Shown here one piece after another: positions 2,139 through 37,616 of a stretch of 37,616 nucleotides of DNA. How positions within the stretch are numbered: position 1 is the first letter of the stretch; every line of letters starts with the position of its first letter. A model generated the notes under the pieces. The model saw nothing but the letters and a program-made list of their open reading frames with translations. It was not told the DNA's origin and ran no database searches. Source of the DNA: a virus; the IMG/VR virus record IMGVR_UViG_3300049043_000203, positions 1-37,616 of that record; one strand, given 5' to 3'. The position numbers were made by a program, and so were the translations under genes.

Positions 2139-3632
2139 TCAAATAAGATTGCGACCTTGAAGCGCATAAATCAACGCGGGATTCAAACTACGAATCTCGT
2201 CGTTTAATTGAGGCTCAGTAAAGTTCTTCAGATCCGAAGCACCCTGAGTACCGAGAACAGCAGCTTCCGCAGTAGCCGAAGTATTGCCGATCATGTTATT
2301 AGCGTTATTAGATCCCGCAGGAGTGGTAATAACTTTTTGAGTTTCTTGGGGAACCTGCTGGCTAGGCAGAGTATTAGAACCGGTAGCCTTACGGAGAAGC
2401 TCATAAGCTAATGCAGGATTAGCTCCAGCCCAAGCCACTAATTGAGGAGAATCTAAGACTCCGCGCTTGGCTGAGCTCAGAAATAACTTCAGCCTTGTTG
2501 GCAGGGAAGCCAGCATAAGCTTCGCGTTGTTTGTAATAGTCTTGCAGCTCACGTTGCGGCTTGGTGTACTGCTGTTTTGCTGCAGTTAAAGCCTCGTCTT
2601 CGCCACGGGTGGTGATTACAGTCTGACCCTCGGCGCCCCGATAAACCGGTTTGGGCAAAGGACCGCCCGCACCCATGCCAGCTGCGATCTCGCGGGCGGC
2701 GTTAATACGACGATTTTGCGCCGCAACAGGATCGTTGATGGGCCCGCCAGCGTCCACACTCTCAGACGTGGGCCCCATCGCGCTTTCAACAGGAGCTTCT
2801 GGTTGGGCAGCAGGTGCGGTAAAACGACCGGCAGCAAAAGCAGCAGCTAATCCAGCAGGCATCCCGACAGCAAGACCAAGTTTCGAGAGATCCATCTGGC
2901 GAACGCCTGCAGCAGCGTTAGTCAGATCGCGGACATCAACGTCGACAACATCTTCAACAGCCCCCGCAGCGCGCTTAGCACCACCTAAAAATTCAGCCAG
3001 CAAGCCGCCAGGAGAACGAGTCAGTTCACCGCCCCGTTCAACAGCAGTTACTGCACCAGGAGTAACAGGAGGACGCATGGCGCCGCCGCCACGAGTTACA
3101 GCAACGGCACCTGGGAATATTGGCTTCGAGATTACGCAGAAAATCAGTGCCACCAGGAGCAACTAAATCATCCACGCTGACGGGCTTACCGTAATAAGCA
3201 GAGGCGCGCCGAGCTAACTCATTAATGCTGCGATATGTGCCAGGATCTTGGGCATAAAGCTCTTCAGCGGTCCGGCTAATGGGACCCTGCATAGGCGTAG
3301 TTTTAAACTGAGGCTTAGGAGCAGGACCAGGCTCGAACAGGCTCAGTTGATTTGGATTTGGACGTGCGGGGAGGGTAGGTACATCCGCAGCACGAGGGCT
3401 GGGACGAAGCATTGCCCTGTAGTCAACATCCGCAGGAGAAATTTTCGGACCGTATACGGAGCGACCAGGTTGAATCCTCTGTAAATCGCCGATAAGGCTT
3501 TGTTGGAAATACTTGGAGCTCGCTCACAGCTTCGACTCCCTCTCGAACAGCCGTTTGAGCGGGTTTAAGTATCCCGCTTTTTACGAGACCCGCCCCAAAA
3601 ATCTTTAAGACTTCTTGTAATTTTTTGTCCAC
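2139..3632 (-). CDS. Large virion-like protein broken by three frameshifts
   Basis: Four consecutive open stretches on one strand (3632-3423, 3412-3038, 3162-2419, 2552-2139) read as a single protein of about 497 residues once frame changes near 3515, 3116 and 2468 are allowed. It starts GTG (VDKKLQEVLKIFGAG). The middle is Pro/Ala/Gly-rich with a hydrophobic Ala/Gly segment (GMPAGLAAAFAAGRF), and the C-terminal part carries WAGANPALAYELLRK. A closely similar motif, WAQKNPALAYRELMR, ends the gene at 27327-28122, so the two are probably paralogues. The composition suggests an internal virion or ejection protein, but no known family was recognised. Three small indels, one beside a CCC run, look more like assembly errors than decay. 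Confidence 0.55.
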
Positions 3633-4368: not shown

Positions 4369-4806
4369 TTACTCGACATAAACTACATCACCCTCTAACA
4401 CGGAATCCCAATCCACGCGGGTGATTGAACGAAGCTGATCAAGCTTGGTGAAACGTTCGCCAGGCATCGACTGCTGAAGTTCTTTAATTTCCGTGGCAGT
4501 TTTAAGCCCAATCCCCTTCAGAACTTGAGTTAAAAGCTGAGGAGTAGCCGAATTAATATTGACGCGGTTGTAAGCCTGAACTTCAGGTTTTACGATTTGT
4601 CGTCCATGACGTTTTTTGGCGGCAGGCTTTTCGGCAGGCTCAGCTTCGACAGTCTCTTCGGCAATCTGATTTTTATGAGCAAAGAAAACTTTGCCGGTTG
4701 TCAGCGACCGGACCATTTTGTACTCACCCTCATCGTGCTCGCTTAAAACTTCAATTTTTACGCCGTTAGGTGTAAAAGTAAATTCCTTAACGGTCACGGC
4801 AGTCAT
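4369..4806 (-). CDS. Helix-hairpin-helix (ComEA-like) DNA-binding protein
   Basis: Intact 145-residue protein. The N-terminal 50 residues form a small beta-like domain. Residues about 55-70 are an acidic-to-basic linker (EPAEKPAAKKRHGRQ). The C-terminal 65 residues match the double helix-hairpin-helix of ComEA-type proteins: VNINSATPQLL, then LKGIGLKTATEIKEL, then an FTKLDQLRSI segment. This fold binds DNA backbone without sequence specificity. In a phage head module it might bind packaged DNA or act at the portal, but that is inference. The family call is firm; the phage role is not. It lies just downstream of the terminator at 4851-4873, so it may need its own promoter or read-through. Confidence 0.8.
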   Translation of the reverse strand: MTAVTVKEFTFTPNGVKIEVLSEHDEGEYKMVRSLTTGKVFFAHKNQIAEETVEAEPAEKPAAKKRHGRQIVKPEVQAYNRVNINSATPQLLTQVLKGIGLKTATEIKELQQSMPGERFTKLDQLRSITRVDWDSVLEGDVVYVE

Positions 4807-6793: not shown

Positions 6794-7788
6794 CCTGTAA
6801 TGCTTAAAAAGCACCGTGAGGCTCTTTATCCTCACGTAACATCACCTTAAGGACAGTGATGAGTAGACTATATCATCACCCACAGCAGGTGGTATCCTCT
6901 GTTTGGGTGCCCCGCGCTCGTGTCACCTTATCGGCTTCTACAACAAATTTGTTGCGGTCAGCCTCGCTCCATTTTGATTTTCCTCGATTAGTTCGAGTGT
7001 CATAACGGAGGTCGAATTTGTAGGACATAGCTTTAGATCCGTAAGGCTTTAGTGCCTCTACGAGTAATCGAGCTTGTGTTCCATTGCCTCGAAGATTCCA
7101 CTTATTAGGACTCTTCGTTTTCATCGGCTCACGTGGAGTCAAAGAAGCGCCGGTTAAGCTCTCGATCCAGTCAGACACCACCAAAGCTGTGTCGTAAGGA
7201 ACGTATAAAGCTAGCTCTACAATGCGCTCCCTAATATAAGGTTCGTTCGTGCGCGGAGAATTACCACGACGACGAAGCCGAAGATTGCCGTCATCCATAT
7301 AAAGAAGAGACAATCCTTCTAATCCAATATCACGCAAAAAAGAAGGTGTTATTACCTTTTTCCTTGCGGATAAAGATCCTTATATAAAGGAAGAAGCAGC
7401 TCCTGTTGATTAGACCACCACTGACAACTAGGAAAAGATCCTGTTTGACAAGTGCTTACTCTTTCTTGAATAGGCTGCTTGATTCCAAAAATTCGATTAA
7501 GCCTCCCCACTTTCCAGCGGAGATACTCAAACTGTTTTTTAGAGTGAGCGATATAAAGACTTGGGTAAGTCGTCTGATGCTTTAAGCATCCATCGCCCAA
7601 ACAAGCTCCTTTTAAAAAAGAGCGGTCGCTTCGAGAGAGCATTCGAGCAGTGTTAGTCGTTGAACCTTCCAATCATTTCTGATTGGCTTGGCTGCTGATT
7701 GGCCTCCCCGAGGGGTCCGGCTTTCCAGCAATTCACGGGGTTGTTCGACCGAGATTTCGCCCGGAAGTTCCCAGACCTTAGCAGGTCA
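6794..7788 (-). ncRNA. Group I self-splicing intron in the major capsid gene
   Basis: A 995-nt intervening sequence. Exon 1 ends in T (GATTTCT at 7795-7789) and the intron ends in G (ATTACAGG, last base 6794), the group I rule. Removing it restores the frame exactly, giving HDF-S-KQPGQTVQL. Core pieces are visible on the minus strand. Near 7733-7684 are GAATTGCTGGAAAGCC and GCCAATCAGCAGCCAAGCC, resembling P3-P6 segments of phage group I introns. At 6881-6866 is GGTGATGATATAGTC, a typical P7 strand. GACCT and AGGTC just inside the 5' end could form part of P1. The intron also carries a homing endonuclease gene. Splicing is inferred, not shown. Confidence 0.85.
6876..7642 (-). CDS. LAGLIDADG homing endonuclease in the intron (split by frameshift)
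   Basis: Intron-encoded LAGLIDADG endonuclease, which would cut intronless capsid genes and drive intron homing. The first half (ATG at 7642) carries motif one, FLKGACLGDGCL; the second half (from about 7350) carries motif two, LSLLYMDDGNL. Both acidic catalytic residues are present, giving a single-chain enzyme of about 255 residues. The halves are in different frames. The break is at a run of five A (about 7358-7364), where one extra A would restore PQGKKVITPSF. The gene's stop codon lies within the intron's own P7 strand, so coding and catalytic RNA overlap. In this copy the enzyme is inactive unless the indel is an assembly error. Confidence 0.8.
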
Positions 7789-17402: not shown

Positions 17403-18589
17403 ATTACTACTAACTACATAATCTTTAATCAAAAATCTTTCTTGCGTATTTTTTACTTTTAAGCACATAACTTTTTGAGTACCCATCGGAACAATGTCTC
17501 GAATGGATCGCACAACACCGCGATTGCTTTTTCCGAAGCAGGACCTGAATAAAGCTCTGATTTACGGCTGCAATAAAACGGTTTAATGTTCTCAGGCAGA
17601 TGAACAGCGACGCGGTAAGCAAGATTTTTACTAATTATTTTTTCACCGTTTTTAAAATAATGAGGGTAATAGGGTGTGTAGTAAGATACCAAACCGCCCA
17701 ACGAACGTACTAATTCAGCAAAAGCATCAATAAGTTTTTTGCTAGAAGAACCGTAAACGAGACCTCCTTTAGCCTCTTTTTTGTTTGTAGTTCCGTCTGA
17801 ATCCATTAAACCTCTGAGTAACCATTCGCGTTGCTCAATAGAGCCGCGAAGATACATCTTTGGTATATCTTTTTCTAAAGAATTTACTCCACGTAGTCCT
17901 AAATCTGAAATCGCTTTTGAAAGCTCTTTCTTAAAACCTCCGCGACGACCATCAATAATCTTTCCTGCGTTCGGGGAATCTTTTAATTGAATTTGATAGC
18001 AGTATTTACGCGTAGCGTAAGAACGCTCGACGATTTTATGATCATCAGGCAAAACTGTACTTATAAACGCAATAATATCTTTATCGGCTGTTGTGATATT
18101 TATAGCGCTTTTATCAGTAAGACCTCCGTCACCCAATAAAATACCGAGCAAATATGGATGAATGGGAAGTTCTAAATGCGGGTAATTAACTGGGTTTGTC
18201 ACAGGAACTTGATATCTGCTATGGCCACGAGTATCAAGCCAAGGTTTTTCATCTGGTTCGGCTAGTCGAACTGTACGGGAAACTCCCGTACGCCAATTAC
18301 CTTTGACTCCTGTAGTAACAAAGGTACGAATTTCCTGAAGTGTGGTTTTGCGATATACGTTTTTGGGATCCGTCCCCATACGCCGTACATCAAAGCGATG
18401 AGAATCATCGCAAATTAAAGAGGTCCCATCAGAAAATAAAACTTTAAAAACGTCAACTTTGTCATACTCAAGGACTTCAAGAACTTCAGTTGGTTCTCCG
18501 TCGTCCCCATAAACAAAATCGCCTACCTGTATTTCCTCAAGAGGTTTCCAACCTTCAGGCGTAGCAACGGAGGTTTTCGCTGCTAACGG
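17403..18589 (-). CDS. Intein with LAGLIDADG endonuclease in terL
   Basis: A full-size intein of about 395 residues inserted in the terminase P-loop. The N-terminal splicing block is PLAAKTSVATPEGWKPLEE then VGDFVYGDDGE. Block B is around DDSHRFDVRR. The endonuclease motifs are LLGILLGDGGL and WLLRGLMDSDGT. Block F is VMCLKVKNTQERFLIKDY, and the end is VVSSN before extein Ser. The first residue is Pro, block F has Cys where most inteins have Asp, and the penultimate residue is Ser not His, all suggesting a class 3-like splicing route. The frame breaks near 17,535 at an A5 run (GAAAAAG); one extra A restores it. The protein would otherwise stop at 17,459. Confidence 0.87.
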
Positions 18590-18846
18590 CCCACGTGGAG
18601 CCAAAATATCTAAATTCGGACCAGCAATATCAAGTAAATACTTATTGGACTCACCCGTAATTAGATGTCGATGCCACTCCAGCATGTGCTTGGCCGGAGG
18701 CTTATCAAGGAGCGTACAGAACGTATGGAAGTCTTCTGCGGCCTTGCTGTAGATAGTTTCTACGCCCAGTATTAGTATCTTCCGTGGCGCGTAAGCGCAC
18801 GTAATTGCGCCGCTCGGCGATAAGCGAACGTTTCGCGGCTCGGCAT
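18590..18846 (-). CDS. terL: Terminase large subunit, N-terminal part (N-extein)
   Basis: Encodes the N-terminal segment of the packaging ATPase: SKAAEDFHTFCTLLDKPPA, then HMLEWHRHLITGESNKYLL, ending LDILAPRG at the intein. RPP/KPP-x-H-x-x-WH patterns just before the P-loop are normal for this TerL type. An in-frame ATG exists at 18,685, but clearly homologous sequence continues upstream of it without a start codon. An ATG at 18,846 (MPSRETFAYRRAAQLRALT) would fit if one base is missing near 18,775 (CACGGAAGATA). I therefore take 18,846 as the probable start, with low certainty. Divergent to the GT4 gene. Confidence 0.7.
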
Positions 18847-36505: not shown

Positions 36506-36829
36506 TTAATACCGTCTAATACCTAAAAAATATTCTAAATCACAAAAATTGCGCAAAAAATTTTTTAATATTACTTTCAGTATATTGATACTCAAAAGTT
36601 TCACCCCAATTTACCCGCAAGATTTAGAAAACCTTCTCGCCCCCGCCGTCGATCAAGACCAGTAATTAAAAAAAAGGCAAGATTGCGGGCAGGTTGCGGG
36701 CAGGATTGCGCGGGGGTTTGTATAACTAACTGTGCGGCGCTATCCTATCATCAGGTGCGAGCTATGTATAATTGTAACAGTTTGTAAATTAGATTGACAG
36801 GCGGGCCGGTCGCGTGGTAATTCGCGCGC
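36506..36829. other. AT-rich intergenic leader with candidate promoter elements
   Basis: No convincing gene. It contains an AAAAAATTTTTT run near 36,555-36,566, a short GC-rich tandem repeat, a TATAAT box near 36,767 without a good -35, and a perfect TTGACA at 36,794-36,799 with only a weak TAATTC 18 bases later. The region could hold the promoter for the structured RNA that follows. Confidence 0.4.
36683..36715. repeat. Short tandem repeat
   Basis: TTGCGGGCAGG occurs twice in direct succession (36,683-36,693 and 36,694-36,704), followed by a partial third copy, TTGCGCGGGG. It lies 110-150 bp upstream of the structured RNA and may be a protein-binding array or a chance expansion. Confidence 0.75.
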
Positions 36830-37616
36830 GCGTGCGGTTCCTCTTAGGTAACTAGGTGAGCTCAGGGTGACTAGGTACTTGTACCTATAAGCTACGCTGA
36901 TGGAAGAATAGGTATAAATACCTATGGCTGGGTATTGACTGCCGAACCGCTTACGGGGTACCTTTGGGTCACTGAAGCAAACCGCTTCAGGTTGAACCTT
37001 GACAACCGAACTAGGGAACCGCGATGGCCGAACGGGCCCCACGCGTGCCGCCGATGGTAGGGAGAACATCCCCGAAGTGTAGGCGATGGCAGGCATGGTG
37101 TGCCCGAACGTGAGCGGCGGATCTCTTTCAGGTTTCAAGGTTGACGAACCTTGACAACAGAATAGGTGTGAGCGTAGTAGGAAGCCCGTGAGGGTTAGTA
37201 CGAAACCTGCTGCATCTATTCCCTATATAGTTTACGCAATCAGTGCGGACAATGCAGCCGAAACATAGTAGGCCATTGGATAAGCACTCTGCACTGATTG
37301 TCAGCGGGCATCTTGTCTTTAACTAAGGCAAATTAGTGACGCTAAATGTCAGCAACCCTCGTCAGGTTGCAGCTAAATACAACCAACTTGTCCGGTTGTA
37401 GTTAGTTACAGCAGCCCAGATGCTATGTCCGATGGGTTAGTTACATTCTGACCCATTGTCTTAACTACCCTGAGCCCACTAGTGCGTCTCACTTAGATGG
37501 CGCGACGGGATAAATAGTTAGGTTTATGTCATCTGTACGCTGTAACTAACTACATGCCCGGCAATTTGTTTTACTTTGCTCCGCAGAGAATTACTCTCTG
37601 AGGGGCCAGCAATACG
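36830..37616 (+). ncRNA. Candidate very large structured noncoding RNA (GOLLD/ROOL size class)
   Basis: No credible gene, but long helices all along. Examples: 36,972-36,978/36,984-36,990; a multi-part stem 37,034-37,052/37,088-37,105; 37,160-37,165/37,216-37,221 and 37,174-37,181/37,206-37,213, enclosing AGCCC-GUGA-GGGUU with a GNRA loop; 37,237-37,246/37,291-37,300 (10 perfect pairs); 37,352-37,357/37,365-37,370; 37,373-37,384/37,394-37,405; 37,430-37,437/37,451-37,458; a hairpin over 37,494-37,534; and a perfect 15-nt pairing 37,398-37,412/37,539-37,553. G-U pairs in two helices work only in plus sense. It runs off the window edge. The size resembles GOLLD (about 800 nt, phage-linked), but family membership was not tested. 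Confidence 0.72.

Follow-up and report, generated by a model that had tools for sequence, protein, structure and literature searches.

The window analysed here, the whole stretch of 37,616 nucleotides, is an entire IMG/VR record, linear and 37,616 bases long. Its genes include recognisable ones for the terminase, portal, capsid protein and dCMP deaminase. Its last 787 nt (positions 36,830 to 37,616) contain no plausible gene in the list of open reading frames, as an earlier note on this DNA had stated. The note had also taken the right edge for that of a phage genome, whereas it is that of a linear contig. The RNA described below is therefore cut at this point, and the homologues show ~200 nt of further conserved sequence ahead of the first gene. 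Over 78% of the protein, the portal shares 45.6% identity with its counterpart in Synechococcus phage S-EIV1 (KJ410740), the one match among 50,697 phage records. Judging by the portal, the window phage is a distant S-EIV1-like cyanophage whose closest isolate is S-EIV1, from a high-arctic lake, and it is solely from this relation that we derive the presumed cyanobacterial host and freshwater habitat. The large terminase subunit (17,459-18,685) is interrupted by an intein-like insert with matches to LAGLIDADG homing endonucleases, and two minus-strand ORFs (6,876-7,672) near the major head protein resemble, by eye, a broken homing-endonuclease-type gene.

All features of the RNA locus are on the plus strand. 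A conserved DNA element (TTCTCGCC...CG.CG...AAAAAAAAGG, 36,634-36,680) could be aligned in nearly all the homologues that reach this far upstream. Closer to the RNA there is a putative promoter (TTGACA, 18 nt, TAATTC, 36,794-36,823) with a weak second hexamer, of which TTGAC and the same spacing are found in most homologues; since the consensus scan, which passed no plus-strand promoter in this region of the window, missed it, this is a promoter that we infer, by inspection. Long alternating CG/TG tracts (GTGCGTGTGCGCGTG...) stand at the place of the TTGACA region in L002, L011, L012, L027, L060 and L063 (homologous contigs carry the prefix L).

The large structured noncoding RNA (36,828-37,616), supported by its folding energy, its homologues and covariation, probably has its 5' end near 36,828. 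It opens with a variable 5' domain (36,838-36,960) that is poorly conserved in the alignment, and domain boundaries within the variable part are approximate. A hairpin, CUGAAGC/GCUUCAG (36,972-36,990), is visible in the sequence and the alignment, and its counterpart in other members is an extended arm capped by a GNRA loop (GAGA, GCAA). Next comes the core domain, R1 (36,993-37,143), supported by covariation over 19 sequences and built from an outer helix (36,991-37,007/37,131-37,145) followed by four more (37,013-37,022/37,117-37,127, 37,033-37,049/37,088-37,106, 37,050-37,058/37,076-37,084 and 37,060-37,063/37,069-37,072); ACCU(U/A/C)GA with UC(A/U/G)AGGU closes it. The core is bracketed by two copies of a 17-nt junction repeat detected in a direct-repeat search (GAACCUUGACAACCGAA at 36,994-37,010 and GAACCUUGACAACAGAA at 37,146-37,162).

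Downstream of the second repeat lies an exchangeable module of the AGUA/GAA type (37,166-37,218), recognised in the sequence, in which the helix 37,174-37,181 (GUAGUAGG) with 37,206-37,213 (CCUGCUGC), containing two U-G pairs, encloses a GUGA tetraloop (37,188-37,191). The consensus fold then predicts a helix (37,236-37,249/37,288-37,301) enclosing a second one (37,250-37,259/37,271-37,278), with a bulged-G or loop-E-like GCCGAA...AGUAGGC called by inspection within 37,236-37,301, and two small hairpins between 37,313 and 37,370 (37,313-37,318/37,326-37,331 and 37,352-37,357/37,365-37,370). The 3' domain, R2 (37,398-37,554), has the closing stem GUAGUUAGUUACAG/CUGUAACUAACUAC and contains a hairpin formed by 37,430-37,437 (CGAUGGGU) and 37,451-37,458 (ACCCAUUG) with one G-U pair, a strongly covarying hairpin at 37,481-37,493 and, directly after it, an invariant GAUGGC (37,496-37,501). 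A last hairpin near the end of the window (UCCGCAGAG/CUCUGAGGG, 37,580-37,604) appears in the consensus fold and is kept in L007. Pairings over long distances between the 5' and 3' parts (for example 36,856-36,868 with 37,467-37,479, and the variable stems around GAUGGC) are tentative. Both helices with U-G or G-U pairs and the GNRA tetraloop are just as the earlier note had drawn them.

The RNA was found in 30 further IMG/VR contigs by exact-pattern scans and one protein-based scan. A few of the contigs are identical or nearly so (L012/L022, L018/L019 and L003/L004); the family has ~27 distinct and deeply diverged copies. Two covariance models, built separately and with E-values that should be read as rough, were used to describe them. 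The core model matches 28 contigs, the window included, always with one core per contig, and the 3'-domain model matches 27 of the 31, again including the window; the other four are cut by the contig end (L018 and L023), carry an insertion (L024) or have a short variant of the domain (L016). Two contigs outside both training sets, L076 and L079, were found via the 3' stem alone and have R1 (54 and 41 bits) and R2 (82 and 65 bits) in the same order, ~250-290 nt apart. Twelve other pattern matches (L031, L061, L062, L064-L066, L068, L069, L074, L075, L077 and L078) were dropped for unconvincing model support. Neither domain is present in S-EIV1, where R1 scores 13.9 bits at best, R2 has no match and BLAST gave nothing significant. 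Plain BLAST of the RNA against annotated phages and plasmids returned nothing useful, and the core pattern had no match in 84,980 bacterial and archaeal genomes. The same genome search gave a single match to the 3'-domain pattern, in Brevibacillus, which at 9.9 bits was taken as chance.

The 787 nt fold with a predicted energy of -300 kcal/mol, against -246 +/- 8 for dinucleotide shuffles (z -6.5), and the reverse complement folds more weakly (-268, z -5.5). The difference between strands is also seen in the consensus fold of the whole RNA (alignment of the window, L007, L003 and L015), with z -9.8 for the plus strand versus -8.2 for the minus, and in the R2 model, which scores 87-141 bits in the sense orientation versus 20-46 bits on the other strand at the same sites. 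All three measures agree with the plus strand being the sense strand, as had been proposed from the wobble pairs. The sole long ORF across the RNA is on the minus strand (132 aa, 36,740-37,138) and is not kept in the homologues, no frame is open throughout the alignment, and the indels are not multiples of three. A protein-coding reading was thus ruled out for want of a conserved frame; the presence of such a frame would, according to the earlier note, have overturned its proposal.

Covariation gives overwhelming evidence for a conserved structure. In the core (19 sequences and 39 pairs, aligned without reference to structure), 94.5% of the cells are paired, compared with 87.1% in shuffled alignments, and 18 of the 39 pairs show double changes, compared with 7.2 after shuffling; sliding the partner by one to three columns lowers pairing to 29-46%. 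The 3' domain behaves in the same way, with 91.3% of cells paired (77.7% shuffled), compensatory change in 19 of 36 pairs (12.8 shuffled), 84 double-changed cells (30.2 shuffled) and pairing of 26-39% with a slid partner. None of 500 shuffles attained the observed values in either domain; shuffling leaves the relatedness of the sequences in, but this relatedness is also retained when the partner is slid, and the held-out contigs are independent of it. The hairpin ahead of the invariant GAUGGC, for instance, reads CACGG/CCGUG, CCGG/CCGG, GCGG/CCGC, AGUG/CACU or UGCAC/GUGCA depending on the phage. Compensatory changes in excess of both shuffled and slid controls, together with no conserved frame, are the general mark of a structured noncoding RNA, and lack of covariation, another outcome held by the note to be fatal to the proposal, was contradicted in two separately modelled domains. 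The very large structured noncoding phage RNA proposed from the window is thereby supported by its homologues, its covariation and its folding energy.

Parts of the RNA are interchangeable. The module that follows the core in the window is replaced in other members by unrelated ones, several alternatives being found at this position, and the exchange occurs between close relatives. Measured from a TTCC motif on the 5' side to the closing stem of the 3' domain, the length ranges from 616 nt (L002) through 702 (window) and 832 (L013) to 928 nt (L010), and reaches 1,271 nt in L024, which carries extra modules and an HNH-like ORF. The latter is antisense, lies inside the 3' domain (L024:5,496-5,959) and was recognised by eye from an HNH-nuclease-like motif (EYEVDHKIPLFKGGLAH). 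The core is absent from L060, L063 and L067, which retain a single junction repeat, so that the core resembles a cassette flanked by repeats. The structure is thus under selection at the RNA level, with a near-universal 3' domain, exchangeable modules, a repeated junction and a fixed genomic place.

This place is nearly always the same. On one side of the RNA is the divergent region of F1 (a protein of ~988 aa), accompanied in most contigs by DUF6717 (F7) or F5, and on the other a same-strand array of small genes from families F6, F9, F16, F3, F8, F10, F2 and F4. The first gene of the array starts ~150-300 nt past the 3' domain, and its family varies (F6 in most contigs, F9 in L042 and L055, F46 in L040/L041). 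In the interval, at a point that would fall beyond the window end, GATC occurs three or four times with 10-11 bp spacing ~80-120 nt past the 3' domain (L003, L007, L011 and others), and almost every homologue whose sequence covers this point has conserved it; the repeats, one helical turn apart, resemble a DNA site such as a phased operator. About 125 nt past the 3' domain lies a hairpin, GATTCTCTCC...GAGGGATTC, that has a strongly covarying apical stem (L003, L005, L007 and others; at 310 nt in L002) and that overlaps a terminator-like GAGGGATTCATTCCCTC-TTTGTTG, the two forming a possible attenuator of the small-gene array. Just before the first gene, inspection revealed a CCAGC-N6-GCTGGTGAATG hairpin over a probable ribosome-binding site (L007, L011, L012 and others).

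The setting raises the main rival explanation, namely that the RNA is a giant cis-acting 5' leader controlling transcription or translation of the array by attenuation. It is on the strand of the array and a short distance ahead of its first gene, the covarying hairpin could compete with the terminator-like GAGGGA...TCCCTC-TTTGTTG, and the hairpin adjoining the first gene overlaps its probable ribosome-binding site. However, the family of the first gene differs among phages although the array is the same, and an independent promoter of the array could be what the GATC triplet and the hairpin downstream are part of. Furthermore, at 600-900 nt and with swappable modules, the RNA is far larger than any leader known to us. 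In L011 there are two terminator-like sites, one (4,569-4,585) separating the RNA from the first gene and another upstream of the RNA (3,409-3,427, a hairpin with a run of eight T), and with this upstream site the RNA looks like a unit of its own. Read-through into the genes is possible, given that no promoter passed the scan and that L071 has no terminator-like site. Altogether, we consider a leader unlikely, though it is the alternative that deserves most attention.

The earlier note had suggested a divergent member of GOLLD or ROOL, or else a new class, and the search that it proposed with both covariance models was run. At E values up to 10, the ROOL model (RF03087) had no match across the window and ~25 contigs with homologues, and it recovered its positive control, plasmid pMP118 (NC_007930), at 130.4 bits. 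For the same set and E<=10, the GOLLD model (RF02032) gave nothing meaningful, only stretches of 24 and 59 nt at 4-6 bits outside the RNA, the positive control having been run for ROOL only. The whole of Rfam at E<=5 returned for the window one meaningless miRNA match of 13 bits, and at gathering thresholds it was negative in 17 and 11 further loci. Membership of either class, which size, phage location, the conserved 3' and variable 5' parts and the tRNA genes within several kb in some contigs would favour, is hence very improbable. A tRNA-Leu lies 5 kb from the RNA in the window, and some homologues have a tRNA, or two of them, within several kb; no island was seen. We prefer the second option, a new class, considering that no Rfam family matches and that ~30 related contigs carry the RNA. 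No earlier description of it was found in the literature searched.

The same searches bear on a ribozyme, a group I- or II-like intron or a nuclease guide RNA. A large RNA with GNRA loops and loop-E-like motifs, and in L024 the HNH-like ORF that runs antisense through part of the 3' domain, would suit such a function. Nevertheless, there was no Rfam match to an intron, RNase P, HEARO or other such RNA (group-II-D1D4-1 fell below the cut-off and outside the RNA), the RNA is intergenic, with no gene interrupted in the contigs inspected, and the HNH ORF is found in only one of 31 contigs. We give this explanation scarcely any credence.

Taken together, the comparative evidence indicates that this is a real, very large, folded and noncoding RNA, an uncatalogued family that recurs with interchangeable parts in ~30 cyanophage contigs. 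The explanation that we favour, with a probability of slightly under 60%, is a stand-alone gene of S-EIV1-like freshwater cyanophages for a large noncoding RNA, GOLLD-like in organisation and unrelated to GOLLD, that, once folded, would act early in infection as a scaffold or particle. It would be transcribed on the plus strand from the promoter near 36,800 and end slightly past the contig end, and it would be made early, with or just ahead of the small-gene array. The active agent would be the folded RNA itself, working much as GOLLD and ROOL do, as a scaffold or a particle of several subunits; its size, its phage setting and the combination of a fixed 3' domain with variable 5' parts lead us to this guess. 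Assembly or binding, common to all members, would fall to the conserved 3' domain, and the swapped modules would fit the RNA to different hosts. Formation of a multimer is a more tentative element, judged less likely than not, and inspection showed no palindromic kissing loop that clearly covaries. A broader proposal, in which a new superfamily of giant RNAs swaps whole folded domains at a repeated junction and makes an RNA particle within the cyanobacterium, modules specific to the host being mounted on an unchanging 3' platform, is speculative and probably goes too far.

The exchange of modules between close relatives, at the head of a small-gene array with the appearance of early genes, is also what might be seen if the RNA were a decoy or served in counter-defence, its swapped modules imitating RNA targets of the host. 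No module resembles a known Rfam RNA, though, and the near-universal 3' domain suggests a function common to all members, which makes a decoy improbable as a separate explanation; it could, all the same, be compatible with the stand-alone folded RNA that we favour.

To our knowledge, only a handful of bacterial RNA classes are this large. What the giant RNAs of phages do is a question that this family can help to address, since it provides ~27 diverged copies, two working covariance models, natural deletions and swaps of modules, and a fixed genomic place. With them, it becomes practical to ask by structure whether the RNA assembles into a cage and by genetics which module is important in which host, and the family suggests that giant RNAs can be modular.

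Among described systems, the unclassified ~800-nt RNAs of phage ICP1 and Kayvirus phage K are likewise large phage RNAs, abundant as transcripts and without an assigned function (PMC7567579, PMC9241854); the likeness is one of description, and they are known from RNA-seq whereas the RNA reported here is known from sequence alone. ROOL too is a large phage or plasmid RNA without an ORF, but its 5' and 3' parts are intertwined and must coevolve (PMC12286853), whereas here the modules exchange. GOLLD, which forms a 14-mer cage (PMC12286853) and is reported, as cited in a passage of PMC7567579, to accumulate during lytic growth yet to be dispensable, is the closest in design. It is also phage-borne, belongs to the 0.8-kb size class and has many helices with GNRA loops, and both RNAs combine a universally conserved 3' part with a variable 5' part (PMC12286853), a similarity of organisation and not of homology. 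The RNA described here differs from GOLLD in having an optional core bracketed by junction repeats and in being carried by the S-EIV1 group of cyanophages.
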